Origin: Dehalococcoidia bacterium
GTDB lineage: Bacteria > Chloroflexota > Dehalococcoidia > Tepidiformales > Tepidiformaceae
Direction of reading: 5' to 3'
Assembly (NCBI GenBank): GCA_020850615.1
Contig: JADZEI010000012.1
Span: forward strand, 1-64,000
Length of the DNA stretch: 64,000 bases
The notes under the pieces are model-generated. The model ran no database searches. It was not told the origin of the DNA and saw only the letters and a list, made by a program, of their open reading frames with translations. Positions within the stretch are counted from its first letter, which is position 1. Every line of letters starts with the position of its first letter. This document shows, piece after piece, positions 23,636 to 52,207 of the stretch. The position numbers and the translations under genes were made by a program.

Positions 23636-24397
23636 ATGGCGATCATCCACATCACGCGGCCACACGCATCACAGCTCGGGGTGCGCGGCGAGCGGCCCGG
23701 CGACCGGCTGCGGCGCTATGCGACCGCCGAGGCGGCGCGCGGCAACGTCGCGGTGCGGGCGGCGCTGTTCGGGACGGCGTTCAGCGCGGTGAGCGCGCTG
23801 GTTGGCGTGGCGATCTTCGGGTTCGATGGCGCGCACCAGCTCTTCCGGGACATCGGGCCGGTGACGGCGCTGTCGGTGGTGGGGATCCTCGCGGTGGGAT
23901 ACCTGGGACTTTTGATCGCGGCGGCGGAAGCGCCCGCGGGGGGCATCCGCCGGCTGACCAACTTCTGGGCGCTCGCGGGCGCGGGCTTCCTGGTGCTCTC
24001 GCTGGATGCGCCGCTGGACCTGCACGGGCGCCTCGGCGGGGCGATCCAGTCGCAGACGGCGCTGGCGCAGGACCTCGGGTTCCACCAGACGAGCGACGCG
24101 GTCCTGGCGGTGTACATGCTCGCCGGGCTGGCGGTGGCGGCCGTGTACTGGCGCGAGGTGCTGCGGTACCCGGTGGTGCTGGCGCATCTCATCGCGGGCG
24201 TGTTCCTCATGGGCGGGACGGTCGCGATCGACGGGTTCGGGGCGCACAGCTCGCTGACGTGGGTGCTCGAAGAGACGGTCGAGCTCTGGGCGATCGCGGC
24301 GTTCGTGGGCGGGTTCGCGGTGCGGCTCGGTATCGCGAACGAGCGGGCGGGTGTGGCGCTTCCGCTGTTGGTGGCGCGGCGGCGGGCGGCGGCATGA
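23636..24397 (+). CDS. Multi-pass membrane protein, unknown function
   Basis: A 253-residue protein with about six to seven hydrophobic helices, starting with an N-terminal cytoplasmic stretch of about 35 residues. I do not recognise a family. Charged residues within the helices (LSLDAPLDLHGR, VAIDGFGAH, LEETVELW) hint at a binding or transport role. The ATG at 23636 is preceded by GGGGGAC at a suitable distance; an upstream in-frame ATG at 23600 would add 12 residues. It is divergent from the PAP2 gene, and the 202-base spacer 23434-23635 holds the two promoters in a noticeably AT-richer stretch (about 23490-23560). Confidence 0.65.
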   Translation: MAIIHITRPHASQLGVRGERPGDRLRRYATAEAARGNVAVRAALFGTAFSAVSALVGVAIFGFDGAHQLFRDIGPVTALSVVGILAVGYLGLLIAAAEAPAGGIRRLTNFWALAGAGFLVLSLDAPLDLHGRLGGAIQSQTALAQDLGFHQTSDAVLAVYMLAGLAVAAVYWREVLRYPVVLAHLIAGVFLMGGTVAIDGFGAHSSLTWVLEETVELWAIAAFVGGFAVRLGIANERAGVALPLLVARRRAAA

Positions 24398-24413
24398 ATC
24401 CACCGGTTTCGCG

Positions 24414-24443
24414 TTGACAGGGCACGGCGGGCGGGCCTACTCT
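24414..24443 (+). promoter_or_regulatory. Promoter of the T-box/trp operon
   Basis: A consensus TTGACA (24414-24419) and TACTCT (24438-24443) are separated by 18 bases, predicting transcription from about 24450. It is the clearest two-element promoter in the window apart from the one for SRP RNA. Confidence 0.7.
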
Positions 24444-24449
24444 TCGATG

Positions 24450-24735
24450 GCACAACTGAATACGTGGCGTTGAACGGGAAGAGTAGCCCGTCTGGCGAGC
24501 CTTCAGAGAACCGGGGCAAGGTGTGAGCCCGGTGGCGGCGCGACAGGTGAATGGACCCGGGAGCTCCGGCGGCGAACGGCGAACAGCCCAGTAGCTGCCG
24601 GCGGAGAGGGCACCGATATCACGGCCCGGGCGATCGCCGCGCTGCGTGGCCGTCGCTACAGAAGTGCCCCGGCAACGGGGAACAAAGGTGGCACCGCGAG
24701 CAACCCCTCGTCCTTTGCGATGGAGGGGTTTTCTG
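24450..24735 (+). promoter_or_regulatory. T-box leader with a tryptophan specifier
   Basis: All elements of a transcription-terminating T-box occur in order. The 5' GGGAAGAGTAG block is at 24478-24488, followed by the stem I AGAGA and GGTGTGA motifs, then GTGAATGGACC with specifier codon TGG (Trp) at 24552-24554 and GTAGCTGCCGGC. The T-box sequence AAAGGTGGCACCGCG is at 24684-24698. Its UGGC bulge (24689-24692) would pair with a tRNA end GCCA, matching the G discriminator of bacterial tRNA-Trp. Downstream CCTTT can pair with AAAGG as the antiterminator. Uncharged tRNA-Trp should favour readthrough into the trp genes. Confidence 0.9.
24702..24734 (+). terminator. T-box-controlled intrinsic terminator
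   Basis: AACCCCTC (24702-24709) pairs with GAGGGGTT (24723-24730) and is followed by TTCTGTTGTT. It is mutually exclusive with the antiterminator formed by the T-box sequence and CCTTT at 24712-24716. Confidence 0.85.
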
Positions 24736-24767
24736 TTGTTCGCGACCAGAAGATGAGGGGACACGTT

Positions 24768-26126
24768 ATGGCTACCAAGAAGTTCTTCCTGCCGGAGTCG
24801 GAGATCCCGACGCACTGGTACAACATCGCGGCGGACCTGCCGACGCCGCCCCCGCCGCCGCTGCACCCGGCGACGCACGAGCCGATCGGGCCAGAGGCGC
24901 TTGCGCCGCTCTTCCCGATGGAGCTGATCAAGCAGGAAGTGAGCAGCGAGCGGTACATCGAGATCCCGGACGAGGTCCGGGAGATCTACCGGATCTGGCG
25001 CCCATCCCCCCTCGTGCGCGCCACCGGCCTGGAGAAGGCGCTCGATACGCCGGCCCGCATCTACTACAAGTACGAAGGCGTCTCGCCGGCCGGTTCGCAC
25101 AAGCCGAACACGGCGGTCGCGCAGGCGTATTACAACAAGCAGGAAGGCGTCCGCCGGATCGCGACGGAGACGGGCGCGGGCCAGTGGGGCTCGTCGCTGG
25201 CGTTCGCCTGCAGCCAGTTCGACATCGAGTGCAAGGTCTACATGGTGCGGATCTCGTACGAGCAGAAGCCGTACCGCCGCTCGCTGATGCAGCTCTGGGG
25301 CAGCAGCGTGGTCGCCAGCCCGAGCGAGGACACGAATGCCGGCCGCACGATCCGCGAGAAGGACCCGGAGAGCAACGGCTCGCTGGGCATCGCGATCAGC
25401 GAGGCGGTCGAGGATGCGGCGATGCGCGAGGACACGAAGTACTCGCTCGGTAGCGTGCTGAACCATGTGCTCCTGCACCAGACGGTCATCGGCCAGGAGG
25501 CGATCAAGCAGTTCGAGATGGCGGGCGACTACCCGGACGTGGTGGTCGGCTGCGCGGGCGGTGGTTCGAACGCGGCGGGCCTGATGTTCCCGTTCCTGAA
25601 GGCGAAGATCGAGGGGAAGCGGGACACGCGGTTCCTCGCGGTGGAGCCGGCTTCGTGCCCGAGCCTGACCAAGGGCGAGTACCGGTACGACTTCGGCGAT
25701 GTGGCGGGACTGACGCCGCTGATGAAGATGTACACGCTGGGCCACGGCTTCATGCCGCCGGGCATCCATGCGGGCGGCCTGCGCTACCACGCGATGGCGC
25801 CGCTGCTCTGCCACCTCTATAGCGAAGGCTTCATCGAGGCAGTTGCGCACCCGCAGAACCCGTGCTTCGAAGCGGCAACGCTGTTCGCGCGGACGGAAGG
25901 CATCGTCCCGGCGCCGGAGAGCTCGCACGCGATCAAGGGTGCGATCGACGAGGCGATGGCGGCGAAGGAAGCGGGCCAGTCGCGGGTCATCGTCTTCAAC
26001 CTGAGCGGCCACGGGTTCCTGGACCTGGCGGCATACGACGACTACCTCGCCGGCCGGCTGGTCGACGACCACTATCCCGAAGAGAAGGTGCGGGAGGCGA
26101 TGAAGGACCTCCCTGTCATCGCCTGA
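24768..26126 (+). CDS. trpB2: TrpB-like PLP enzyme (TrpB2 type)
   Basis: A 452-residue tryptophan synthase beta-like protein of the TrpB2 branch, longer than classic TrpB and with the typical N-terminus [13 protein letters not shown]. The PLP lysine is K112 in GSHKPNTA and the phosphate-binding loop is [10 protein letters not shown]. TrpB2 enzymes condense indole with serine, usually without a stable TrpA partner, and can rescue escaped indole. GAGGGG sits nine bases before the ATG at 24768. As first gene behind the Trp T-box it should be induced by uncharged tRNA-Trp. A second, classic trpB lies at 35.4 kb. Confidence 0.93.
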
Positions 26127-26149
26127 GCCCCCAAAGGAGATCTACCCCC

Positions 26150-26809
26150 ATGTCGAATCTCGCAACCCGCCTGCGCGCCGTGCTCACCGAGCAGTCGATG
26201 CTCGACCACCCGTTCTACCGCGCCTGGACTCAAGGCACGCTGGAAGTGGAGCGGCTGCGCGAATATGCGAAGCAGTACTACCACTTCGAGGCGGCATTCC
26301 CGCGGCTGCTGAGCGCGATCCACACGCGGACGGAATCGCCCGCGATCCGCCAGGCGCTGCTGGACAACCTCTGGGACGAGGAGCACGGCGAGCGGAACCA
26401 CCCGGCGCTCTGGCTGGAGTTCGCGGCGGCGCTGGGCCTTTCCGCGGAGGAAGTAGTGAACAGCACGCCCAACGCGGAGACGCAGGCGCTGCTGGACCAC
26501 TACCGCGCGGCGGCAGCTGAGGCGCCGGTCGCGGAGGCCCTCGTCACGCTCTTCGCCTATGAAGGACAGGTTCCGGAGATCGCCTGGCAGAAGATCAAGG
26601 GGCTGAGCGACCACTACGGCTTCAAGCCAGACCAGTTCGAGTTCTGGTCGGTCCACCTGGTGGCCGACATCGCGCATTCGGGCCACGAGATGGCAGCGAT
26701 CGAAGAGGCGTGCAGCGACGAGGACGGCACCGTGCGCGCGGCCCAGGCCGCGTGCACGAAGCTGCTTGGCTTCCTCGACGGGTGTTACGCCACCGCCGGC
26801 GTGCGCTGA
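26150..26809 (+). CDS. CADD/TenA-like diiron protein, candidate self-sacrificing 4-aminobenzoate synthase
   Basis: A 219-residue heme-oxygenase-like diiron oxidase (TenA/PqqC/CADD superfamily). Candidate iron ligands are E77, H84, E138, H169, D173 and H176, in the motifs DEEHGERNH, FAYEGQ and SVHLVADIAHSGH. Compared with Chlamydia CADD as I remember it (Y27, E81, H88, E142, K152, H174, D178, H181), this protein has Y23, E77, H84, E138, K148, H169, D173 and H176: constant offsets of four, then five. CADD makes 4-aminobenzoate using its own Tyr as scaffold and a Lys as amino donor. The gene lies between trpB2 and trpS, with AAAGGAG ten bases before the ATG. Activity is inferred; other TenA-like oxidases share the iron site. 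Confidence 0.8.
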   Translation: MSNLATRLRAVLTEQSMLDHPFYRAWTQGTLEVERLREYAKQYYHFEAAFPRLLSAIHTRTESPAIRQALLDNLWDEEHGERNHPALWLEFAAALGLSAEEVVNSTPNAETQALLDHYRAAAAEAPVAEALVTLFAYEGQVPEIAWQKIKGLSDHYGFKPDQFEFWSVHLVADIAHSGHEMAAIEEACSDEDGTVRAAQAACTKLLGFLDGCYATAGVR

Positions 26810-27258
26810 TGGCCGAGTTCGAGAACGTCGAGGCCTGGAACACGGCGGTCCGCCTGGCGGCGGGCGTTGGGCGGCTGAAGGTGGCTTCGAACCTGAAGGC
26901 TTCTGCCGACGCCCAGGCCAACGCGTTCGAACAGGCCGGCATCGCGGCCGGCCTGATCGCCGAGGGCGCGGGGCGCGAAGGCCCGGCCCAGGCGGGGCTC
27001 TACCGGGATGCGCGCGGGGCGCTGGCGCAGTGCAGCTCATGGCTGCACGTGCTGGCGAGCGTGACCAACCAGCAGCCGGAGGTGTTCGGGCAGGAGCTCG
27101 AGCTGGCGGAGCTGGCTTCGAAACAAGTAAGCGGCGTGCTGCGCACGCTCGACCGTGGCCCCCGCCCGGGTGGCCCGCCGGCCCCGCAGCCACAACGTGC
27201 GGGCGGGCCGCCGCAACGCCCGGGTGGCCGGCCAGGAGGTGGTGGAGGACCACGATGA
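26809..27258 (+). CDS. Four-helix-bundle protein (S23/IVP-like)
   Basis: A 149-residue protein whose start overlaps the preceding stop (TGATG). Residues 1-110 resemble four-helix-bundle proteins of the 23S-rRNA intervening-sequence type: FENVEAWNTAVRLAAG at the start, then AAGLIAEGAGREGPAQ in place of the usual S-x-x-x-NIAEG, then helices 3 and 4. The last 40 residues are a Pro/Gly/Arg-rich tail. The role of this family is unknown in general. Its location, translationally coupled between the CADD-like gene and trpS, is unusual. The trpS start overlaps its stop by four bases. Confidence 0.7.
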   Translation: MAEFENVEAWNTAVRLAAGVGRLKVASNLKASADAQANAFEQAGIAAGLIAEGAGREGPAQAGLYRDARGALAQCSSWLHVLASVTNQQPEVFGQELELAELASKQVSGVLRTLDRGPRPGGPPAPQPQRAGGPPQRPGGRPGGGGGPR

Positions 27259-28301
27259 CCGAGGCAGACCTCTCCCCGGGCGGGAAGAAGCGCATCCTGA
27301 CCGGGATCCGGCCGACCGGTGCCCTGCACCTCGGCCACTACGCCGGTGCGCTCGAAAACTGGGTGAAGCTCCAGCACGAGTACGATGCCTACTTCCTCAT
27401 CGCCGATTACCAGGTGTCGGACTATGCCGACGACATCGCGCGTGTCCGGGAGAGCGTCTGGGAAGTCGCGCTGGACTTCCTCGCGGTGGGGCTGGACCCG
27501 GAGGGGAGCTCCTACGTCATCGAGAGCCTGGTGCCGGAGCACGCCGAGCTGACGACGCTGCTCGGGTGGTTCCTGCCGGTCTCGATGCTCGAACGCAACC
27601 CGACGCTGAAGGCGGAGATGGAGGCGATCGAGCACCCGGAGGACGGGCAGAAGGAAGGCAAGTCGGTCCCGGTCGCGTTCTACACGTACCCGGTGATGCA
27701 GGTGGCGAACATCCTCATGCCGCGGGCGCACCTGGTGCCCGTGGGCGAGGACCAGCTACCGCACATCGAGCTCACCCGGGAGACGGCGCGGCGGTTCAAC
27801 CGGCGGTTCAAGCCGGTGTTCCCGGAACCGGAGGCGCTGGTGGGCCGCGTGGCCCGGCTGGTCGGCACGGACGGCAACGCGAAGATGAGCAAGTCCCGCA
27901 ACAACGCGATCTACCTGAAGGACGACGCGGCGACGGTCGCGAAGAAGATCAAGGGGATGTACGCGGGGCCACCGCGGGGGATGAACGAACCCGGCAAGGT
28001 CGACGAGAACCCGATCTTCCTCTACCTGGAGGCGTTCCACACAAACCAGGCGGAGGTGCAGGACCTGAAGGCGCGGTACGAGTCCACCGGGGTGGGCAAC
28101 GCCGAGCTGAAAGCAAAGCTGACAGAGGCGCTGAACGGGCTGCTCGAGCCGATCCGGGAGCGGCGGCAGCAGTACGCGCAGAACATGACGCGCGTGAAGG
28201 AAGCCCTCGAAGCGGGGACGAAGCGGGAACGGGCCATCGCCTGCGAGACGATGGCGCAGGTCCGCGACGCCCTCGACCTGAACTACCTGGCGAAGTACTG
28301 A
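27255..28301 (+). CDS. trpS: Tryptophanyl-tRNA synthetase
   Basis: A 348-residue class I aminoacyl-tRNA synthetase that charges tRNA-Trp. The HIGH-type motif is LHLGHYAGA near the N-terminus (after TGIRPTGA) and KMSKS is present in DGNAKMSKSRNN. Length and FTYPVMQ-like block (YTYPVMQVANIL) match bacterial TrpRS. GGAGG lies seven bases before the ATG, which overlaps the previous stop as ATGA. Placing trpS behind a Trp-specific T-box gives direct feedback, because the riboswitch senses the uncharged substrate of this enzyme. Its stop overlaps the trpE start by one base. Confidence 0.95.
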   Translation: MTEADLSPGGKKRILTGIRPTGALHLGHYAGALENWVKLQHEYDAYFLIADYQVSDYADDIARVRESVWEVALDFLAVGLDPEGSSYVIESLVPEHAELTTLLGWFLPVSMLERNPTLKAEMEAIEHPEDGQKEGKSVPVAFYTYPVMQVANILMPRAHLVPVGEDQLPHIELTRETARRFNRRFKPVFPEPEALVGRVARLVGTDGNAKMSKSRNNAIYLKDDAATVAKKIKGMYAGPPRGMNEPGKVDENPIFLYLEAFHTNQAEVQDLKARYESTGVGNAELKAKLTEALNGLLEPIRERRQQYAQNMTRVKEALEAGTKRERAIACETMAQVRDALDLNYLAKY

Positions 28302-29791
28302 TGCTGCACCCAACGCTCGAAGAAGTCCGCGAAATCGCGAAACGGGGCGACGGCAACATCGTCCCGATCTACCGGGAGGTGGCGGCCGACCTGGAGACGC
28401 CAGTCTCGGCGTTCCTGAAGGTGCGGCAGTCACCCTATGCGTTCCTGCTGGAGTCAGTGGAGGGCGGGGAGCGGCTGGCGCGCTACTCGTTCATCGGCAC
28501 GTCGCCCTACCGGGTGATCCGGACCGGCCCGGGGCAGGAGTACGAAGGCGACCCGCTCGTGCCGGTGCAGGAGGAGCTCGACCGGTACCGGGAGGTGCGC
28601 CTGCCGGGACTTCCGCAGCTCACCGGCGGAGCGATCGGCTACGTGGCCTACGACGCGGTGAGGCACTTCGAACCGCGGATGGCGCGCGAGCAGGATGATC
28701 CGCTCGGCATCCCGGAGTCGATGTTCCTGTTCAGCGACACGATGGTGGTGTTCGACCACCTTCGCCACAGCATCAAGGTGATGGCGCACTGCCGGCTGGA
28801 CGGGGACATCGACGCCGCCTACCGGCAGGCGGCATTCCAGATCGACAGCATCCGCGAGCGGCTGGCCAACCCGACGGTGCCGCTGCCGCCCGAGGAGGTG
28901 GCGGACGTGGTGCGGGGTTCGAACGGCAGCGGCGCTTCGAACCAGGGCCGGGAAGGCTACGAGATGATGGTCGAGAAGATCCGCGAGTACATCATCGCGG
29001 GCGACTGCATCCAGGTCGTACCGTCGCACCGGATCACGCGGAAGACGGCGGTGCACCCGTTCAACATCTACCGGCAGATGCGGATGGTGAATCCGTCGCC
29101 GTACATGTTCTACCTGGAGCTGGGCGACTTTCAGATCATCGGGGCGTCGCCGGAGCTGCTGGTGCGGGTGGAGGACGGCGTCGTGACCACGCACCCGATC
29201 GCGGGCACGCGGCCGCGGGGGGCGAACGACGACGAGGACGCCGCCATCGCGGAGGAGCTCCTCGCGGACGAAAAGGAGCGGGCCGAGCACATCATGCTCG
29301 TGGACCTGGGCCGGAACGACATCGGACGGGTGGCGAAGCCGGGGACGGTGCAGGTGGATTCGCTCATGCACATCGAGCGGTTCAGCCACGTGATGCACAT
29401 CGTCAGCCACGTGTCCGGGCAGCTCGACGAGGGGAAGACGCCGTTCGATGCGTTCCGGTCGGTGTTCCCGGCGGGCACGCTTTCGGGGGCGCCGAAGGTG
29501 CGGGCGATGGAGATCATCGCGGAGCTGGAGCGCGAAAAGCGCGGCATCTACGGCGGCGCCGTGGGCTACGCGAGCTTCGCGGGCAGCCTGGACACGTGCA
29601 TCGGCATCCGCAGCATCCTGTTCAAGGACGGGACGGCGTACCTCCAGGCGGGCGGCGGGATCGTGTACGACTCGGACCCGTACAAGGAGTACGTGGAGAC
29701 GGTGAACAAGCTCCGGGCGCCGATGCGGGCGATCGACCAGGCGGAGATCGCGGCGGCGGAGATGCGGCAGGGGAGCATTGGGTATGGGTAG
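28301..29791 (+). CDS. trpE: Anthranilate synthase component I
   Basis: A 496-residue chorismate-utilising enzyme. The N-terminal region has FLLESVEGGERLARYSFIG, with the LLES segment that forms the Trp feedback site in characterised TrpE. The catalytic domain has IQVVPSHRI, HPIAGTRPRG, LVDLGRNDIGRV and PAGTLSGAPKVRAMEII. It makes anthranilate from chorismate with ammonia supplied by TrpG, whose gene is displaced 2.4 kb downstream. PabB is the main alternative, but LLES, the Trp T-box and the flanking trp genes favour TrpE. The 209 bases after the stop hold only repeats. Confidence 0.92.
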   Translation: MLHPTLEEVREIAKRGDGNIVPIYREVAADLETPVSAFLKVRQSPYAFLLESVEGGERLARYSFIGTSPYRVIRTGPGQEYEGDPLVPVQEELDRYREVRLPGLPQLTGGAIGYVAYDAVRHFEPRMAREQDDPLGIPESMFLFSDTMVVFDHLRHSIKVMAHCRLDGDIDAAYRQAAFQIDSIRERLANPTVPLPPEEVADVVRGSNGSGASNQGREGYEMMVEKIREYIIAGDCIQVVPSHRITRKTAVHPFNIYRQMRMVNPSPYMFYLELGDFQIIGASPELLVRVEDGVVTTHPIAGTRPRGANDDEDAAIAEELLADEKERAEHIMLVDLGRNDIGRVAKPGTVQVDSLMHIERFSHVMHIVSHVSGQLDEGKTPFDAFRSVFPAGTLSGAPKVRAMEIIAELEREKRGIYGGAVGYASFAGSLDTCIGIRSILFKDGTAYLQAGGGIVYDSDPYKEYVETVNKLRAPMRAIDQAEIAAAEMRQGSIGYG

Positions 29792-30000: not shown

Positions 30001-30393
30001 GTGACTGACCGGCGGCCGGACCGCGTGTACGGGATCCTGGTGAGGGACCGGCGCGCGTTCGTGGCTGCGTATCCGGCGGGGATGGGGCTGCCGGGCGGGG
30101 TGTTCCCGCCGCTGGCCGACCACCGGAAGAACGAACTGACGACGCTCCTGTACGACCAGCTGGGCGTGTGGGCGCGGTCCATCTGGGCGCAGGGAGCGTT
30201 CGAGTATCAACACCCGGCCGAGGACCAACCCTGGTTCTCGGGGTTCTACACGGTGTGGGAGTGGGAAGGGGAGCCGCGACCCGGCACAGGGCAGTGGCTC
30301 GACGAAGCGGCGGTCCTGGAGAGCGGGTTGCCGGCGCCGCTCCGCATCCTGCTCCTCAGCGTGCTCAACACGCAGGTCATGAGGACGACATGA
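30001..30393 (+). CDS. Hypothetical protein with degenerate Nudix-like fold
   Basis: A 130-residue protein. RVYGILVRDRRAFVAA followed by LPGGVFPP looks like the opening strand and GG turn of a Nudix domain, but the following helix (KNELTTLLYDQLGV) lacks the REXXEE residues that bind metal, so hydrolase activity is unlikely. A GTG start with GGGAGGAGGGGC immediately upstream is well supported. Its stop overlaps the ATG of a second Nudix-like protein by four bases. It is the first of four non-trp genes between trpE and trpG. Function unknown. Confidence 0.65.
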   Translation: MTDRRPDRVYGILVRDRRAFVAAYPAGMGLPGGVFPPLADHRKNELTTLLYDQLGVWARSIWAQGAFEYQHPAEDQPWFSGFYTVWEWEGEPRPGTGQWLDEAAVLESGLPAPLRILLLSVLNTQVMRTT

Positions 30394-31250
30394 GTCAGCG
30401 CATCCGCCTCTCCGCAATCGTCGCGCGCGACGGCTTGCTCTATCTGCTCCGGCCGGAGGCGGGCGGGCACTGGGACCTGCCCGGCGGCGCGCTGGGCGAG
30501 GGCGCCGACGTCGACGAGGCGATGGACGCCTACCTGGTGGCGCACGGCGTGCAGGCGCCCGCGATCGAGGAGGACTTCGTGCGCACGGTGTACGTGGGCA
30601 CGCCGCCCGCGGGCATGGTGCTGAACCTGTATGCGCCCACGGAGTGGACCGGCGAGCCGGTGGCCGGGGCGGGCCACGAGGGCGGCTGGTTCGACCTGGT
30701 GGAGATCGAGACGCTGGACATGGACGGCAACGTGCGCCAGGCGCTGCTCGACACGTTCGGCGAGGAGCCGGACGACGGGTTCGCTGCGCTGCAGGAGCTC
30801 CAGGAGCGGCTGCCGGCAGAGCTGCGGCAAGACGCCGCGCCCGTGGCGAGCCCGGAGCCGTTCGTGGACCGGCGGGCGGCGGGTTATGACGTGCTGCGGA
30901 CACTGAACAACATGCCCGGCGAGCAGGCGGCGCGGCAGATGTCGGACATGTACGGGCCGCTGGCCGAGGACGTGTTCGACTACGCCCTGGGGACAGTCTG
31001 GGCGCTGCCGCACATCGACCGGAAGACCAAGAGCCTGCAGGTGGTGGCGATGATCGCGGCGCAGGGCCACGCGGGGCCGCTGCGGTCGCACGTCAACGGC
31101 GCGCTGAACCACGGCGTGACGCCGGAGCAGCTGGCCGAGACGATCCGGCTGGTAGCGGCGTACGCGGGCTTCCCGGCGGCGCTGGAGGCGTGGCGGGTGA
31201 TGGAAAAGGTGGTCGAGGCGCGCGGCCTGAAGATCGAGCGGCCGCTATGA
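30390..31250 (+). CDS. Nudix-like domain fused to a carboxymuconolactone decarboxylase-type domain
   Basis: A 286-residue two-domain protein. Residues 1-125 follow a Nudix pattern (IVARDGLLYLLRP, HWDLPGGALGEG) but have DEAMDAYLVAHGV where REXXEEXG is required, so the domain is probably a binding module. Residues about 155-280 match the carboxymuconolactone decarboxylase/AhpD fold (LPHIDRKTKSLQVVAMIAAQ, HVNGALNHGVTPEQL) without the CxxC of peroxidase-type members. GAGG lies seven bases before the ATG, which overlaps the previous stop, and the end overlaps the HAD gene. Substrate unknown; a small carboxylated or lactone metabolite would fit the second domain. Confidence 0.7.
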   Translation: MSQRIRLSAIVARDGLLYLLRPEAGGHWDLPGGALGEGADVDEAMDAYLVAHGVQAPAIEEDFVRTVYVGTPPAGMVLNLYAPTEWTGEPVAGAGHEGGWFDLVEIETLDMDGNVRQALLDTFGEEPDDGFAALQELQERLPAELRQDAAPVASPEPFVDRRAAGYDVLRTLNNMPGEQAARQMSDMYGPLAEDVFDYALGTVWALPHIDRKTKSLQVVAMIAAQGHAGPLRSHVNGALNHGVTPEQLAETIRLVAAYAGFPAALEAWRVMEKVVEARGLKIERPL

Positions 31251-31903
31251 AAGCGCTGCTCTGGGACCTGGACGACACGCTGCTGAACACGGCACCGGCG
31301 CGGATGAAGGCGCTGGGCCACGCGCACGAAGTGTGCCTCGGGACGCGCACCGACCCGTGGGCGCTGTGGGTATCGCACCGCGGGGGCTCGCTGGAGGCGC
31401 TGGCGCAGCGGCTCATGGGCGCGGAGGGGCCGCGGTTCGTGAAGGCTTACCGGGAGTACTACTACGGGCTGCCCGGCCGGGCGCCGGCCTTCGACGGCAT
31501 CGGGGAAGTGCTGGCGGCGTGCCACGATGGGGGGATCAAGATGGCGGTGGTCACGCAAAAGATCTCGTGGGGGGCGACGGACGAGCTGGAGGCGGCGGGG
31601 CTGCTGCGCTACTTCGCGGCGATTGTCGGCGTCGACGACGTGGAGCACCACAAGCCGGACCCGGAGCCCGTGTTCGCCGCGATGGACCGGCTGCTCGTGA
31701 CCGAGCCGGCGGACGTGGCGCTGGTGGGCGATAGCCCGGCCGACATCTTCGCGGCGCGGAACGCCGGCTGCACGTCGATCGCGGCGCTGTGGGGCATGCT
31801 CGACATGGAGCTCACCCTTGACGCGGCGCCCGACTACACCGCGCGCACACCCGGCGACATCCTGGACGTGCTGGAAGTGCGGCTCAGCGGGGCCGGGCGA
31901 TGA
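31247..31903 (+). CDS. HAD-superfamily phosphatase
   Basis: A 218-residue HAD hydrolase with motif I LLWDLDDTLL (nucleophile Asp and general acid Asp), motif II Thr in AVVTQK, motif III Lys in HHKPDPEP and motif IV VGDSPADI. The cap inserted after motif I is alpha-helical, as in phosphoglycolate phosphatase and PpaX-like enzymes. The start overlaps the preceding stop (ATGA), as does its own end with the next gene. It might dephosphorylate a pathway by-product in this cluster, for example a phosphoribosyl or glycolate derivative, but the substrate is not readable. Confidence 0.85.
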   Translation: MKALLWDLDDTLLNTAPARMKALGHAHEVCLGTRTDPWALWVSHRGGSLEALAQRLMGAEGPRFVKAYREYYYGLPGRAPAFDGIGEVLAACHDGGIKMAVVTQKISWGATDELEAAGLLRYFAAIVGVDDVEHHKPDPEPVFAAMDRLLVTEPADVALVGDSPADIFAARNAGCTSIAALWGMLDMELTLDAAPDYTARTPGDILDVLEVRLSGAGR

Positions 31904-32223
31904 CGGTCGAGAAGCAGGTGACGCACCTGGCGGTGCGGTTCTACCGGGTCGCCGGCGTGGAGCTGGTGCTGGTGCCGCTGCTCCAGGAGGTGGCGTCGTT
32001 CACGCGGTCGGCGGGCGACGGGTACTTCCTGGTAGCGCTGACCGGCGAGCCGGGGACGGCCTACCCGGTGAACCTGCGGATGGCGTCGTCGCTGGAGCCT
32101 TCGTACCTGGAGAAGAAGTTCCGCCTTGACCGGCGGGGCTACAGTTATTCGCCCGAGGAGCTTTCGGCGGCGCTGCGGCAGGTCGCCGAGGACCTGTTCG
32201 CCGAGGAGGGACTGGACGCGTGA
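31900..32223 (+). CDS. Hypothetical protein
   Basis: A 107-residue protein, [20 protein letters not shown]..., with alternating beta strands and a C-terminal acidic helix ([20 protein letters not shown]). I do not recognise it. It overlaps both neighbours by four bases (ATGA at the start, GTGA into trpG), so it is translated together with the HAD phosphatase and TrpG. That tight coupling suggests a genuine gene in the trp operon rather than a chance frame. Confidence 0.65.
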
Positions 32224-32801
32224 CGACACTGCTCATCGATAACTACGACAGCTTCACCTACAACCTGTACCAGGACCTCGCCGAGCGCGGCGCCGACGTG
32301 AAGGTGTTCCGGAACGACAAGGTGACGCTCGCGGAGTGCATCGCGCTGAAGCCGGATCACGTCGTGATCTCCCCGGGGCCGGGCGACCCGGACGACGCGG
32401 GCATTTCGCGCGAGGTGATCCGCCACTTCGCGGGGAAGGTGCCGGTGCTGGGCGTGTGCCTGGGTCACCAGTGCATTTATGACGTGTACGGCGGGCACGT
32501 GACCGGGGCGGGCGAGATCATGCACGGCAAGACCTCGCCGATCAGCCACGACGGCAAGGGCGTGTTCAAGGACATCCCGGAGGGGTTCACGGCGGTGCGC
32601 TACCACTCGCTGGCCGGCACGCCCGAGACGCAGCCGGCGGAGCTCGACGTGACGGCGCATTCGGACAGCGGCGTGATCATGGGCGTGCGGCACAAGACAC
32701 TGACGGTGGAGGGCGTCCAGTTCCACCCCGAGTCCATCGCGACCGAGCACGGGAAGGAGCTGCTGCGGAACTTCCTGGAGATGGAGGGAGGGGAGTGGTG
32801 A
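32220..32801 (+). CDS. trpG: Anthranilate synthase component II (glutamine amidotransferase)
   Basis: A 193-residue class I glutamine amidotransferase that supplies ammonia to Trp[14 protein letters not shown] is the N-terminal hallmark, GVCLGHQ contains the catalytic Cys, and VQFHPES holds the His and Glu of the triad. [12 protein letters not shown] forms the oxyanion region. The GTG start overlaps the previous stop. PabA is equally possible by sequence, and in many bacteria one protein serves both complexes; the position beside trpD supports TrpG. It is followed by an 82-base gap carrying a heptamer repeat. Confidence 0.92.
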
Positions 32802-32804
32802 TCG

Positions 32805-32832
32805 CGATTTTCGATTTTCGATTTTCGATTTT
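32805..32832 (+). repeat. Heptamer tandem repeat CGATTTT x4
   Basis: Four exact copies of CGATTTT in the trpG-trpD gap (32802-32883), an AT-rich island in otherwise GC-rich DNA. The same heptamer occurs inverted at 29951-29971. The rest of the gap holds only the trpD ribosome-binding region. Confidence 0.92.
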
Positions 32833-32883
32833 CGCCACGTCGCCCTTGTCGCACGAAGTCGAAGGCAGGACCGGGGGTGGACG

Positions 32884-33897
32884 ATGATCCAGGAGGCGAT
32901 CCGGGCGCTGGTTGATGGGCGGGCGATTGGCGCGGAACAGGCGGCGGGCGCGATCGAGGAGATCATGGGCGGCGAGGCGACGCCGGCGCAGATCGGCGCG
33001 TTCCTTGCGGCGCTGCGCCTGCACGGCGAGACGCCCGAGATCATCGCGGCGTGCCTCGGCGTGCTGGAGCGGCATGCGATCGCGGTCCCGGCGGACAACG
33101 TGATCGATGTCGTTGGGACGGGCGGGGACCTGGCGGACACGTTCAACGTCTCGACGGCGGCGGCGATCGTCGTGGCCGGCGCGGGCGTGCGGGTGGCGAA
33201 GCACGGGAACCGCGCGGCGTCTTCGAAGTGCGGCAGCGCGGACGTGCTGGAGGCGCTGGGAGGCAAGCTCGAGCTCGACGGCGCCGCGGCCGCGAAGGTG
33301 GTCGATGGCGCGGGATTCTGCTTCCTGTTCGCGCAGCGGTTCCACCCGGCGATGCGGCATGCGGGCGGCCCCCGGCGGGAGATCGCGGTGCGGACGATCT
33401 TCAATGTGCTCGGGCCGCTGGCGAACCCGGCGCGGCCGCAGGCGATGCTGGTGGGCGTCGGCGCGAAGGCGTTCGGGCCGCTGATGGCCGAGACGTTTCG
33501 GCTGCGCGGCATGGAACGGGCGATGGTGATCCATTCGGAGGACGGGCTCGACGAGATCAGCCCGGCGGCGCCGAGCCACGCCTGGGTGCTGGAAAACGGC
33601 AGGCTGAGCGAACGGACGATCTCGCCGGCGGACTTCGGGCTGCCGGGCCACGCGCTCGATGCGGTGGTCGGCGGCGATGCGATGCACAACTCGGGGCAGA
33701 TGAACGCCGTGCTCGACGGCGCGGAGGGCCCGGTGACGGACTTCGTGCTGATGAGTGCGAGTGCGGCACTGTACGTGGCTGGGAAGACCAGCGACTTCCG
33801 CGAGGGCGTGGCCATCGCGCGGGAGTCGATCGCGTCGGGCCGGGCGCGAGAGGTGCTCGACCGGTACGTGGCGCTCTCGCAGGAGCTGGGCCAGTGA
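32884..33897 (+). CDS. trpD: Anthranilate phosphoribosyltransferase
   Basis: A 337-residue enzyme that joins anthranilate to phosphoribosyl pyrophosphate. The glycine-rich PRPP motif DVVGTGGD is followed by NVSTAAA, and KHGNRAASSKCGSADVLEALG is the family signature. RTIFNVLGPLANPA and MVIHSEDGLDEIS match TrpD. The start ATG lies after GGGGGTGG. The end overlaps trpC by four bases. From here trpD-C-F-B are tightly packed. Confidence 0.95.
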   Translation: MIQEAIRALVDGRAIGAEQAAGAIEEIMGGEATPAQIGAFLAALRLHGETPEIIAACLGVLERHAIAVPADNVIDVVGTGGDLADTFNVSTAAAIVVAGAGVRVAKHGNRAASSKCGSADVLEALGGKLELDGAAAAKVVDGAGFCFLFAQRFHPAMRHAGGPRREIAVRTIFNVLGPLANPARPQAMLVGVGAKAFGPLMAETFRLRGMERAMVIHSEDGLDEISPAAPSHAWVLENGRLSERTISPADFGLPGHALDAVVGGDAMHNSGQMNAVLDGAEGPVTDFVLMSASAALYVAGKTSDFREGVAIARESIASGRAREVLDRYVALSQELGQ

Positions 33898-34703
33898 GCG
33901 AACCGACGATCCTCGACCGGATCGTCGCGCGGCGGCGCGAAGACGTGCGGGCGGCGAAGGAAGCCGTGCCGTTCGTGGAGCTGCAGGCGAAGGCGCGCCA
34001 GGCGCCGCCGCTCATCGACTTCGCGGCACGGCTGCGGGCGGCAGGGCCGGTGGCGCTGATGGCTGAGGTGAAGCGGGCGTCGCCGAGCAAGGGCGGCATC
34101 GCGCCAGGGATGAACGCGGCGCGGCAGGCGATGAAATACGCGCGCGCCGGTGCGGCCGCGATCTCGGTGCTCACGGAACCGACGTGGTTCAAGGGCACGC
34201 TGGAGGACATGGAGCAGGTGCGCGCGGCGGTGGGGCAGCTCGACGGGCGCCCGGCGGTGCTGCGGAAGGACTTCATCATCGATGCGTACCAGGTGCTGGA
34301 GGCGCGGGCGTACGGGGCGGACGCGCTCCTGCTCATCGTCGCGAGCCTGGCGGACGCGGAGCTGCGGGGGCTGCTGGAGCTGACGCGCGAGATGGGCATG
34401 GAAGCGCTCGTGGAGGTGGACAACGCGGCCGGGATGGAGCGCGCGATCGCCGCCGGGGCAACCGTCATCGGCGTGAACAACCGCGACCTGCGCAGCTTCA
34501 CGGTGGACCTCGGGACGACGGACCGGCTGGCGGGGATGGTGCCGGAGGGCGTGATCCTCGCCGCGCTGAGCGGGATCTCGGCGCGCGCGGACGTGGAACG
34601 ATTCGCGGCGGCGGGAGCCCAGGCCGTGCTCGTCGGCGAGGCGCTGATGGTGGCGGACGACCCGGCGGAGAAGATCCGCGAGCTGGTCGGGGTGCCCGCG
34701 TGA
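33894..34703 (+). CDS. trpC: Indole-3-glycerol phosphate synthase
   Basis: A 269-residue TIM-barrel enzyme catalysing ring closure of carboxyphenylamino-deoxyribulose phosphate to indole-glycerol phosphate. The conserved blocks are MAEVKRASPSKGGI (catalytic Lys), ISVLTEPTWFKG, VLRKDFIIDAYQVLEAR, GVNNRDLRSF and LSGIS, with VLVGEALM as the phosphate-binding end. It starts at a GTG overlapping the trpD stop (GTGA), with AGGAG ten bases upstream. The next gene overlaps its stop in the same way, implying coupled translation. Confidence 0.95.
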   Translation: MSEPTILDRIVARRREDVRAAKEAVPFVELQAKARQAPPLIDFAARLRAAGPVALMAEVKRASPSKGGIAPGMNAARQAMKYARAGAAAISVLTEPTWFKGTLEDMEQVRAAVGQLDGRPAVLRKDFIIDAYQVLEARAYGADALLLIVASLADAELRGLLELTREMGMEALVEVDNAAGMERAIAAGATVIGVNNRDLRSFTVDLGTTDRLAGMVPEGVILAALSGISARADVERFAAAGAQAVLVGEALMVADDPAEKIRELVGVPA

Positions 34704-35432
34704 CGTACGTGAAGATCTGCGGGCTGCGCGACCCGGAGACGGCGGTCGAGACAGTGAAGGCGGGCGCCGACATGATCGGCATCGTCTTCGCGCAGTCCAA
34801 GCGGCGGGTGACGCCGCAGGAGGCGTACGACATCCTCGAAGCGGTGCGCGGGGTGCGGCGGACGCCACCGCCGGCGACGTTCGAGGCGCCGGAGCGTGGC
34901 GACGTGCGCGGGCTGAGCTGGTTCGGGGCGTGGAGCGAGGCGCTGGAGCAGGCGGTGTTCCGCTGGCGGCCGCTCATCGTCGGGCTCTTCGCGGACCAGT
35001 CGGTGGCCGAGGTCAACGACATCGCGGACGCGGCAGGCGTGGACCTCGTGCAGCTTTCGGGCGACGAGGACGCCGACTTCGTACGGCAGGTGGAGCGGCC
35101 GGTGCTGAAGGCGGTCCACATCGGCGAACAGACGGCCGCGGAGGACGTATTCGACCGGGTGAACGGGCTGCCGGCCGCGGGGCTGCTCCTGGATACGAAG
35201 TCGGCGGCAGCGCGCGGCGGCACGGGGCGCACGTTCGACTGGGAGGTGGCGACGGAGGTGGCGCGGCGGGTGCCGTTCCTGCTCGCGGGGGGCCTATCGC
35301 CGGAGACCGTGGCCGGGGCCATCGCGCAGGTCGCGCCGTGGGGCGTCGATGTCTCGACGGGGGTCGAGACGGATGGGAAGAAGGACATCGAGAAGATCCG
35401 CGCGTTCATCCGCGCGGCGAAGGGAGTCACGA

Positions 35433-35443
<11 letters not shown>
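34700..35443 (+). CDS. trpF: Phosphoribosylanthranilate isomerase with an internal insertion
   Basis: A 247-residue TIM-barrel isomerase. [12 protein letters not shown] with the catalytic Cys at about 7 opens the protein, [17 protein letters not shown] follows, and LLLDT holds the catalytic Asp; [11 protein letters not shown] and [10 protein letters not shown] end it. Typical TrpF has about 205 residues; the excess is mainly at residues 51-90, between the SKRRVTP helix and the [10 protein letters not shown] strand, in a Pro-rich segment with several Trp and Phe. The GTG start overlaps trpC. Its end overlaps the TTG start of trpB by 11 bases. Confidence 0.92.
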
Positions 35444-36623
<1,180 letters not shown>

Positions 36624-36676
36624 ACGGCGCGCCCGCCGTCAGCGCGGCGCGCGGCGAGGCGTGGGGCCCGAAGGGC

Positions 36677-37453
36677 GTGGCGGCGGGGATCGGGATCGCG
36701 ATCCTGTCGTACGTCCTCACGTTCACGCTCATCGGGGTGACAGCGGCTGCGCTGGACCGCGACCTCGACTTCGAGGACACGCCGCTGTTCGACGCGGCGG
36801 GCGACCTCGCGCGGTATACGGACGAGCGGCTGAAGGCGGCGGCGGAAGGCACGGAGCTCCCGGCACCGCCGACCTTCGCCGGCGACCTGGTGACGGCGCG
36901 GATCGCGTACCTGCTCGGGGCGGTGAACGCGGTTGGCATTACGGTGGCCGCGTTCGTGGGCATGGGCCGCTGGCGGAAACAGTTCGAGCAGGCCCTGGGG
37001 CTCGGCGCCTACAGCTTTGACCGGCTGTGGAAGCCCGGGCTGGTGACGATTGCCGCGTACGTCATCGTCATCCTCTACAGCGTGACTGCGGACGCGCTCG
37101 ACCTGGGCATCCTGGAGCCGGAGCAATCGGTGCCGGGGACGATCATGCGGGACGACTGGGGCATGGCGATCTTCGCCGTGCTGGCGATCGTGTTCGCGCC
37201 CCTGAGCGAGGAGATCTTCTTCCGGGGGCTGGTCTTCGGCGGGTTCGCGCGGTGGGGCTTCGCCATCGCGGGGCCGCTCTCGGCGGTGATCTTCGCCGCA
37301 TCTCACGTCGACCCCGGGACGCTGATCCCGTTCACCATCGTGGGGCTGATGTTCGCGTGGCTGTACCGCTCGTCGGGGAGCCTGTGGGACAGCATCGCCG
37401 CGCACGCTATGTTCAACAGCATCAGCACGTTCCTGCTGCTGTTCACGAGGTAG
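36677..37453 (+). CDS. CPBP-family intramembrane protease
   Basis: A 258-residue (or longer) multi-pass protein with the CPBP/Abi motifs: [12 protein letters not shown] (EExxxR), a His in ASHVDPG and HAMFN (HxxxN), which form the putative glutamic intramembrane protease site. The GTG at 36677 is the first conventional start, but the open frame continues to 36620 and includes AWGPKG, resembling the PWGP segment common before the first CPBP helix. A CTG at 36620 overlapping the trpB stop as CTGA may be the true start. Its placement between trpB and trpA, with trpA six bases after its stop, is unusual, and no link to tryptophan synthesis is apparent. Confidence 0.8.
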
Positions 37454-37458
37454 GAAGC

Positions 37459-38250
37459 ATGTCCAGCCGCCTTCGGGAGCTCTTCGCCACATCCCACGCC
37501 GAAGGGCGCGCGCTCTTCGTCGCCTACACCACCGCGGGGTACCCCTCGCGGGAACAGACGGTGCCGGTGCTGCTCGCGCTGGAGGCCGGCGGCGCCGACG
37601 TGATCGAACTCGGCATGCCGTTCACGGACCCGATGGCCGACGGCGCGACGATCCAGCACGCGAACCAGGTGGCGGTCGAGCAGGGCGTCAGCCTGCGGGA
37701 GTGCTTCAGCCTGGTGCGGGCAGCGCGGGCGCAGGGGCTCAAGGTGCCGGTGCTGTTCATGGGCTACTACAACCCGATCCTCAGCCTCGGCGACGAGGCG
37801 ACCGCGGCGGAGGCGCAGGCGAGCGGCGTGGACGGCTTCATCGTGGTCGACCTGCCGCCGGAAGAGGCGGGGGACTTCCTCGCGGCGTGCCGGGCGCACG
37901 ACCAGAGCTTCGTACCGCTGGTGGCGCCGACGACCGCGGACGCGCGGATCAAGAAGCTGGCGGCAGTGGCGGACGCCTTCCTGTACTGCGTGAGCGTGAC
38001 CGGGACAACGGGGAGCCGGGCGGTGGCGACGGACACGCTGCCGGCGTTCCTGGCGCGGATCCGGGCGCAGACGGAGCTGCCGCTGGCGGTGGGCTTCGGG
38101 ATCAGCACGCGGGAGCACGTGGAGCGGGTTTCGAAGCTGGCGGATGCGGCTGTCGTGGGCAGTGCTATAATCGCGGCCATCGACGCCGCAGGCCCCGAGG
38201 GAGCCGCGCAGGGCGTCCGGGAGTATGTGGAGGATGTCTCCGGCCGGTAA
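37459..38250 (+). CDS. trpA: Tryptophan synthase alpha chain
   Basis: A 263-residue TIM barrel that cleaves indole-glycerol phosphate and channels indole to TrpB. The catalytic Glu and Asp lie in [14 protein letters not shown] and [31 protein letters not shown] and GFGIST match the family. The ATG at 37459 follows AGGTAGGAAGC. The last part of the coding region contains a perfect TATAAT, which may serve the aroH-aroF genes. Confidence 0.95.
38166..38171 (+). promoter_or_regulatory. Internal -10 box (TATAAT) near the end of trpA
   Basis: A perfect TATAAT inside trpA, about 250 bases before the chorismate mutase start. The 170-base gap 38251-38420 that follows contains a small palindrome (GCCATGTATATGGC) and a GC-rich stem with a bulge, but no convincing gene. 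No good -35 is present. Confidence 0.4.
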
Positions 38251-38420
38251 GAAGCAGGTGGAAATGGCCCGACGTGGGTTGGCGTGTGGTGTTGCCGCGC
38301 GGCGATCCTGCCCGGGCCATGTATATGGCGCCCGCTTCCTGGCCGGGGTGTTTGGGCCCCGCCTGGGCTAGCTACCCCACCCAGACCCGTCCCCAACCCC
38401 TGGAGGAGGAACTGCGCCTC

Positions 38421-38804
38421 ATGCCGGTACGTGGCGTCCGCGGTGCGACCACCGTGAACAAGAACACCCGCGAAGAGATCATCGACGCGGCTCGCGAACT
38501 GATTTCGGCGATGGTCGCCGCCAACGACATCGTCACCGACGACATTGCGTCGGCGATTTTCACTACCACGCCCGACCTGAACGCGGAATTCCCGGCGGTG
38601 GCGGCGCGGCAGCTCGGCTGGACGTCGGTGCCGCTGTTGTGCGGGCACGAAATGGGCGTCCCCGGGTCGCTGCCCCTCTGTCTGCGCATCCTGCTCCACC
38701 TGAACACCGACAAGGCAGCGCATGACATCCACCATGTCTACATCCGTGGCGCCTCTGTGCTGCGCCCGGACCTCAGTAGCAGCACGCATTCAACCGCGCG
38801 CTAG
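38421..38804 (+). CDS. aroH: Chorismate mutase, AroH type
   Basis: A 127-residue monofunctional chorismate mutase of the AroH (trimeric, Bacillus-type) fold, converting chorismate to prephenate. [16 protein letters not shown] at the start, [20 protein letters not shown] in the middle, and [22 protein letters not shown] then [13 protein letters not shown] cover the active-site Arg and Glu regions. GGAGGAGGA ends ten bases before the ATG. The next gene encodes DAHP synthase. AroH sends chorismate to phenylalanine and tyrosine, competing with TrpE. Confidence 0.93.
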
Positions 38805-38817
38805 CACGGGAGAACCC

Positions 38818-39864
38818 ATGATCATTGTGCTTTCCCCGGAGGCGACTCCGGATGACATCCACCGGATCGTCGCCCGCATCGAAGAGAGCGGGCGGCAGGC
38901 TCACATCTCGACCGGCACGGAGCGATCCATCATCGGAGTGATCGGGCCCGACCTGCCCGCGCTCCAGGATATGTTCGAGACGCTGCCCCACGTCGAATCC
39001 GTTCATAGGGTGACCAAGCCCTACAAGCTGGTGAGCCGGGAGTTCCGGCCGCAGGACTCCGTGATCGATGTTGGCCGCGGCGTGACCGTCGGCGGCACGG
39101 AGCTGGCCGTGATGGCGGGCCCGTGCTCGATCGAGAACGAGGACCACATCGTCGAAACGGCGCGCGCGGTGAAGGCTGCGGGCGCGAACATCCTGCGCGG
39201 AGGCGCGTTCAAGCCGCGCACTTCGCCCTACAACTTCCGGGGACTCGGCGAGGAAGGGCTTCGCCACCTGGAGGTCGCGGGGCAGGTGACAAACATGCCG
39301 ATCGTCACGGAGCTCATGAGCGTCCGGGACATCGACGCGGTCGCCCGGCACGCGGACATCATCCAGATCGGCGCGCGGAACATGCAGAACTTCATCCTCC
39401 TCGATGAGGTGGGCAAGCTGCGCAAGCCGGTGCTGCTAAAGCGCGGCCTGAGCGGGTTCATCGAGGAGTGGCTGCTGGCGGCGGAGTACATCCTCGCGCA
39501 GGGGAACCCGAACGTGATCCTCTGCGAGCGCGGCATCCGGACGTTCGAAAACGCCTATCGGAACACGATGGACGTGAACGCGATCCCGCTGGTAAAGCAG
39601 CTCAGCCACCTGCCGGTCGTCGCGGACCCGAGCCACGGCACGGGGAAGTGGAAGCTGGTGAAGCCGGTGTCGATGGCGTCGATCGCGGCGGGGGCGGACG
39701 GGCTCATGATCGAGGTGCACCCGAACCCGGACCACGCCCTGAGCGACGGAGCGCAGTCGTTGACGTTCGAATCTTTTACGTCGATGATGCGGGCTGTCGC
39801 CGGTATCGCGTCTGCGGTCGAGCGGACGCTTTCAGGAGTGGAAGCGCCTGCAGCGGCGGGATAG
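38818..39864 (+). CDS. aroF: 3-deoxy-7-phosphoheptulonate synthase (DAHP synthase, type I-beta)
   Basis: A 348-residue first enzyme of the shikimate pathway. Residues 1-70 form the ferredoxin-like regulatory domain of the I-beta class (MIIVLSPEATPDDIHRIV, RSIIGVIG). The barrel follows with MAGPCSIEN, RGGAFKPRTSPY, QIGARNMQNF, LLKRGLSG, CERGIRTFE and DPSHGTGK, matching phosphoenolpyruvate, erythrose-4-phosphate and metal sites. The N-terminal domain is the usual site of aromatic amino-acid feedback, alone or with an attached chorismate mutase; here the mutase is a separate adjacent gene. Confidence 0.95.
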   Translation: MIIVLSPEATPDDIHRIVARIEESGRQAHISTGTERSIIGVIGPDLPALQDMFETLPHVESVHRVTKPYKLVSREFRPQDSVIDVGRGVTVGGTELAVMAGPCSIENEDHIVETARAVKAAGANILRGGAFKPRTSPYNFRGLGEEGLRHLEVAGQVTNMPIVTELMSVRDIDAVARHADIIQIGARNMQNFILLDEVGKLRKPVLLKRGLSGFIEEWLLAAEYILAQGNPNVILCERGIRTFENAYRNTMDVNAIPLVKQLSHLPVVADPSHGTGKWKLVKPVSMASIAAGADGLMIEVHPNPDHALSDGAQSLTFESFTSMMRAVAGIASAVERTLSGVEAPAAAG

Positions 39865-51941: not shown

Positions 51942-52207
51942 GCCGTGCTAGACGGGGAGCTAGCGGTGCCCTGAACCCGCAATCCGCTACAGCGGGGTTG
52001 AATCCCTGCCCGAGGGCTGCTTTTTCGGGGACTGTCCTTGTCAAGCGGCGTTGACGATCTGGTCCTGCGCGGCGAGGCGCCATGAACCTGGTCAGGTCCG
52101 GAAGGAAGCAGCCATAAGTGGAATGCTTCGGGTGCCGCAGGTACGCCGGGTCCGAGCTGGCTGGCGTAGAGCAAGCCCGGGGATCAGTTCGAAGGCAGGT
52201 GCACGGC
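51942..52207 (+). ncRNA. ffs: Large bacterial signal recognition particle RNA with Alu domain
   Basis: The S-domain signature GGTCAGGTCCGGAAGGAAGC (52089-52108) is the Ffh-binding region. The 5' part, TGCTAGACGGGGAGCTAGCG then CCCTGAACCCGCAATCCGCT, matches the Alu domain of the Bacillus-type RNA, and the ends GCCGTGC (51942-51948) and GCACGGC (52201-52207) pair. The total of 266 bases is the large form rather than the short 4.5S RNA of Escherichia coli. With Ffh it targets membrane and secreted proteins during translation. No U-rich terminator is evident in the 59 bases before the next gene. Confidence 0.95.

Follow-up and report, generated by a model that had tools for sequence, protein, structure and literature searches.

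The closest described systems are CADD (CT610) of Chlamydia trachomatis and NePabS (NE1434) of Nitrosomonas europaea, self-sacrificing 4-aminobenzoate (pABA) synthases whose sacrificial residues are Tyr27 and Lys152 in the former and Tyr25 and Lys159 in the latter. In NePabS, Y41 is essential and mutation of Y45 lowers the activity (PMC11965152). Two aromatic residues govern the metal preference in CADD and NePabS, and the F148Y variant of NePabS is cambialistic, functioning about equally with Fe/Fe and Mn/Fe (PMC11965152). Enzymes of the CADD type have already been recorded in Chloroflexi (PMC11965152). In Dehalococcoides, Trp T-boxes are known to precede trpE and trpB-like genes, as described in a paper whose main text makes no mention of folate or aminobenzoate (PMC2494555).

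Here we analyzed a CADD-type gene in a stretch of 64,000 nucleotides (the window) from a Tepidiformaceae genome, in which the gene stands in a tryptophan operon behind a T-box leader. The enzyme family is already known, including in Chloroflexi. The parts that appear to be undescribed are the control of CADD by a Trp T-box and the existence of lysine-less relatives; a literature search of mainly open-access papers turned up no account of CADD being controlled by a T-box.

CADD-Type Gene and trp Operon

The gene starts with ATG at 26150 and ends with the stop at 26807-26809 (26150-26809, 219 codons), and a ribosome-binding site, AAAGGAG, is located at 26133. The 219-aa product, a predicted CADD-type self-sacrificing 4-aminobenzoate synthase by its sequence and modelled fold, scored 219.1 bits against the NCBIfam model TIGR04305 (CADD), above the cut-off of 200, and HMMER alignment to solved structures matched it to the 4-aminobenzoate synthases in PDB with E values of 6e-48 to 6e-43. 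These results agreed with the initial annotation, which had proposed a CADD-like protein here and had named a place among thiaminase-type TenA as what would refute it. Thiaminase II TenA (TIGR04306) and PqqC (TIGR02111) were rejected, with 20.5 bits (cut-off 130) and 46.2 bits (cut-off 240), respectively. No plasmid relative reached 80% query coverage, and the best were about 30-32% identical.

The operon has the order trpB2-CADD-HB-trpS-trpE with CADD as the second gene, so the proposed tryptophan operon setting was confirmed. The genes of this operon and of the cluster that follows it, as well as the leader described below, are on the + strand. The first gene encodes a trpB2-type tryptophan synthase beta-like protein (24768-26126, with the start taken at 24768; PF00291 PALP, 137.8 bits), which is 80-89% identical in relatives and is followed by CADD after 23 bases. 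The start of HB (26809-27258, 149 aa) overlaps the stop of CADD (TGATG), its end overlaps trpS (ATGA), and trpS overlaps trpE. HB had no Pfam or NCBIfam match, and it occupies the same place in most Tepidiformaceae operons with trpB2, including those without CADD. The ORF of trpS (27255-28301) encodes tryptophanyl-tRNA synthetase (its homologue in locus L115 matches PF00579), and trpE (28301-29791) encodes anthranilate synthase component I (PF00425, 319 bits, and PF04715).

After trpE, a gap of 598 bases precedes the rest of the cluster (30390-39864), which was delimited from ORFs and distances and whose order is conserved in relatives. It contains genes for a Nudix-like/CMD protein (30390-31250), HAD (31247-31903) and a 107-aa protein without family match that is kept in most of Tepidiformaceae (31900-32223), followed by trpG (32220-32801). 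The names of the remaining genes come from sequence reading: trpD (32884-33897), trpC (33894-34703), trpF (34700-35443), trpB1 (35433-36623), CPBP-like (36677-37453), trpA (37459-38250), aroH (38421-38804) and DAHP synthase (38818-39864). This cluster and trpB2-trpE may form a single transcript, which is uncertain because of the 598-base gap. The product of 30390-31250 has a C-terminal carboxymuconolactone-decarboxylase (CMD) domain and an N-terminal part that is weakly Nudix-like. Elsewhere in the window, a bacterial large SRP RNA was found at 51943-52206 (RF01854, 204 bits).

Active-Site Residues and Fold

Y23, E77, H84, E138, K148, H169, D173 and H176 had been listed as the counterparts of CADD residues at constant offsets. 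In the HMMER alignment they stood opposite Y27, E81, H88, E142, K152, H174, D178 and H181 of C. trachomatis CADD. The positions and the correspondence were thus correct, while the offset proved slightly inexact, being 4 up to K148 and 5 thereafter owing to a one-residue gap at about 159. Six of these residues are the metal ligands, three His and three carboxylates (E77, H84, E138, H169, D173 and H176), and they, like both sacrificial residues, have aligned counterparts in Chlamydia CADD and Nitrosomonas PabS. The codon of Y23 (26216-26218), the equivalent of the sacrificial tyrosine, specifies a residue that is invariant in the alignments. The codon of K148, the equivalent of the sacrificial lysine, lies at 26591-26593. 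In the alignment with NePabS, Y41, Y45 and W99 correspond to Y39, Y43 and W88, respectively. The aromatic positions for metal preference are occupied by Y137, as in CADD, and F165, as in NePabS, a combination also found in the F148Y variant of NePabS. By analogy, the window protein may be able to use both Fe/Fe and Mn/Fe.

The AlphaFold model of the protein had a pLDDT of 96.8, and its best PDB match was CADD (1rcw), with a Z score of 33.5 and 1.1 Å over 212 residues, compared to a Z score of 27.6 for PqqC. Y23 and K148 were paired with Y27 and K152 by sequence, so the superposition that had been proposed as a check turned out favorably. A different HDO enzyme (a thiaminase, a PqqC-like protein or an AetD-related Trp-oxidising diiron enzyme) with a role in tryptophan or indole would have the common superfamily fold and would suit the place in a trp operon. 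However, the TenA and PqqC scores given above are far below their cut-offs, the CADD signature is complete including K148, no other pABA route was seen in the genome, and K148 has been lost mainly where pabBC is present, so we regard such an enzyme as highly improbable.

pABA Supply in the Host Genome

The host genome (Tepidiformaceae, Dehalococcoidia) comprises 4.17 Mb and is 95% complete. Neither pabB over the cut-off nor a second aminotransferase that could serve as pabC was found in it, and folP was present beside folK, which answers the question of a complete pabABC elsewhere raised in the initial annotation. The only class-IV aminotransferase (Aminotran_4) is IlvE-like by sequence, and the two chorismate-binding proteins are TrpE and one whose gene overlaps a menD-like gene. 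Since folP-folK is present and pabB and pabC were not seen, no pABA source other than CADD is visible, although at 95% completeness a pabB may have been missed. Among 197 genomes of the class, pabB exceeded the TIGR00553 cut-off in 2 of the 28 strong-CADD genomes compared with 64 of the 169 others (Fisher p 0.0009, a statistic that ignores relatedness), and K148 was lost in both of these strong-CADD genomes.

Judged from sequence and model, the window protein very probably belongs with CADD and NePabS as a self-sacrificing pABA synthase with a single turnover, and no other pABA source is visible in the organism. We infer its chemistry by analogy with the characterised orthologues. The di-metal site would start the reaction with O2 and a reductant, and the oxidising equivalent would reach Y23 by way of the Y43/Y39/W88 region. 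Cleavage of the Y23 side chain would convert the tyrosine to glycine, and oxidation of the released side chain with O2 would give the carboxylate, while K148 would donate the amine of pABA. Because no protein molecule can yield more than one pABA, the supply of pABA would be set by how fast CADD is synthesised.

Trp T-Box Leader and Conservation of the Linkage

A Trp-specific T-box leader was located at 24461-24745 with Rfam RF00230 and by sequence search for the motif positions. RF00230 matched 24461-24718 with 97.3 bits (gathering threshold 93), the specifier region GAA-TGG-ACC has TGG at 24552-24554 and GAATGG at 24549, and the T-box sequence TGGCACCGCG lies at 24689-24698. The T-box terminator AACCCCTC...GAGGGGTTTT was found at 24702-24732 and has a long loop. 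The RF00230 score and the TGG specifier place the CADD operon behind a Trp T-box. A promoter/terminator scan of 24300-28400 returned no hits: no terminator-like site was detected, and even the T-box terminator went unnoticed. When the leader was folded freely, its signal did not exceed that of shuffled sequences. At the Rfam gathering threshold, a T-box was found in only some relatives, whereas the motif search recovered a Trp T-box at almost all loci of the family. Where the leader was complete, GAATGG preceded the T-box by 128-165 nt at nearly every Tepidiformaceae locus.

When uncharged tRNA-Trp accumulates, the T-box would let transcription through, and CADD would be made along with the other products of the trp operon. 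Since CADD lies behind the Trp T-box, the pABA supply would rise with tryptophan shortage. For a single-turnover enzyme gene expression equals flux, so the T-box would couple folate supply to tryptophan status, and the control may be of physiological importance.

CADD was present in 30 of the 38 Tepidiformaceae genomes. The order was trpB2-CADD-HB-trpS-trpE, or CADD-trpS-trpE in genus g5, in all CADD-bearing genomes of the family whose neighbourhood was read. In a set of 80 named CADD loci spanning many phyla, trp neighbours within the fetched flanks were restricted to these lineages and that of the distant G055 described below, and in most of the remaining class CADD is not trp-linked. Because of this, the linkage may be a historical one. 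On a passenger reading, the protein would be a pABA synthase kept at a constant sufficient level in an aromatic operon that was co-expressed already, its position behind the T-box would have no regulatory meaning, and it may have replaced older pab genes. This explanation also fits the Dehalococcoides precedent: Trp T-boxes there precede trpE and trpB-like genes, and the trp genes alone may thus account for the T-box (PMC2494555). However, the trp linkage is kept throughout the family, and CADD is the first gene after the T-box in the g5 genomes and in a distant Dehalococcoidia genome (G055, locus L053; 49% identical), where a Trp T-box and terminator directly precede it. Moreover, transcription of a one-turnover enzyme should directly affect the amount of product. 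We consider an unregulated passenger quite possible, but somewhat short of an even chance.

The trpB2-HB-trpS junction without CADD was found in three genomes, G203 (L196, 97% complete), G208 (L197) and G204 (L198). CADD has been lost from, or was never in, the trp operon of these genomes. No pabB was seen in any of the three, which counts against the reading of CADD as the pABA synthase. Since these genomes lack CADD and show no pabB, another pABA supply perhaps exists in the family, or a pabB was missed. In the single-contig genome G184 (L050), CADD and trpB2 are seemingly frameshifted, and a sequencing error is possible there.

Lysine-Less Relatives and pabB

Five Tepidiformaceae genomes had pabB over the cut-off, and all of them also had an adjacent or fused pabC-like domain: G077 and G220 of genus g4, with separate genes, and G173, G199 and G201 of genus g8, with fused genes. 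K148 was missing from the CADD of all five, being replaced by T in g4 and V in g8. Six CADDs of the family were without K148, five of them in these pabB+pabC genomes. The exception was G107 (K148T), a contig-edge fragment from a genome with no pabB seen, which speaks against the pABA-synthase reading. On the other side, pabB was found with none of the 23 readable family CADDs that have K148, and within g8 itself, G198 and G200 are without pabB and have kept K148. Across phyla, Y23, Y39, Y43 and K148 were kept in 77 of the 80 named CADD loci, and the other three, in which K148 is missing, were all Tepidiformaceae.

Because K148 was lost mainly where pabB and pabC are held, these results support the view that the K148 forms serve to make pABA, on an association that represents two or three independent events in draft genomes. 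The simplest account would be that the window protein produces pABA out of its own Y23 and K148 and that this role lapses wherever pabB+pabC is present. The repeated loss of K148 in lineages with pabB+pabC is a natural experiment on which residues serve nothing but pABA synthesis.

In the CADD tree, the lysine-less forms were joined weakly (46/85), and the g4 branch was fast-evolving, with a length of 0.86. The trpS+trpE+trpB2 tree needed three changes and rejected a clade uniting g4 with g8 (AU p 1.2e-6), and a single origin of the lysine-less forms was rejected accordingly. A first, larger concatenation had been set aside because partial genes misplaced rows. The trees are compatible with gain of pabB as well as with its retention, and over their shared domain the g4 and g8 pabB types have only 43-46% identity.

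The lysine-less CADDs of both genera carry Y43F and Y137F, and those of g8 carry Y39F too. They retain the six ligands, Y23, W88, the operon position and the Trp T-box leader, and only at positions 27, 43 and 148 do both lineages carry residues that no K148 protein shows. Pairwise dN/dS of the lysine-less genes was 0.06-0.07 in g8 and 0.155 in g4, indicating purifying selection, compared to 0.06-0.11 for TrpS of the same pairs. The fold of one modelled lysine-less protein was unchanged (Z score of 33.1 to CADD). The altered protein may be retained for a second di-metal role, or it may be decaying slowly under folding constraint.

The conserved ligands and operon position, the purifying selection, the unchanged fold and the few positions abandoned by both lineages would all suit a protein with two jobs, in which the di-metal site of the trp-operon CADD also oxidises another substrate or senses O2 or metal. 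This second role would preserve the gene in the presence of pabB+pabC while the pABA pocket decays. We put this forward tentatively, as possible but rather unlikely. A bifunctional CADD with a second, Trp-linked di-metal function, whose pABA pocket (K148, Y43 and position 27) was separately dismantled in the pabB+pabC lineages while the oxidase was kept, is about as doubtful. If true, there would be a conserved class of lysine-less CADDs, possibly with multi-turnover chemistry, that is still annotated as the CADD family. On the other hand, the absence of CADD from the operons of G203, G204 and G208 means that a second role would be dispensable there, the g4 branch is fast, and the retained residues may only mirror folding and metal binding.

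Since Y23 was present in all five complete lysine-less sequences, these proteins could also still release the Y23 ring without an amine from lysine, so that the product would resemble 4-hydroxybenzoate or the amine would come from a different donor. However, Y43 (NePabS Y45) is changed to F in both lineages and Y39 (the essential NePabS Y41) to F in g8 (PMC11965152), so the path to Y23 looks broken, and we consider such release improbable.

The lysine-less forms are predicted to be intact di-metal proteins and are candidates for a function search. Their TIGR04305 scores of 201-208 bits were all above the cut-off of 200. Because lysine-less forms pass as well, a TIGR04305 score alone is no proof of pABA synthesis, and annotations based on this model, which does not separate the two kinds, should be read with caution.

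Comparison With Known Systems

The window protein, read as a probable pABA synthase, shares the fold, the six metal ligands and the Tyr27 and Lys152 equivalents with CADD of C. trachomatis (1rcw, 8va9, 8vag), and it also has the equivalents of Tyr43 and Tyr141. It is 38% identical to CADD and differs in having F165 where CADD has Tyr170, and its gene belongs to a T-box trp operon rather than a folate cluster. With NePabS (9pj4), it has in common both sacrificial residues, the equivalents of Y41, Y45 and W99, and F at the second aromatic site, while Y137 stands where NePabS has F148 and the gene neighbourhood is different. The PabB-PabC route (aminodeoxychorismate synthase and lyase) leads to the same product. 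It was not found in the window genome and is present in g4, as separate adjacent genes, and in g8, in fused form, where CADD is without K148. Finally, the T-box riboswitches of the Dehalococcoides trp genes (PMC2494555) are likewise a case from Chloroflexota in which a T-box precedes a trpB-like gene, whereas the operon regulated here includes a putative pABA synthase.
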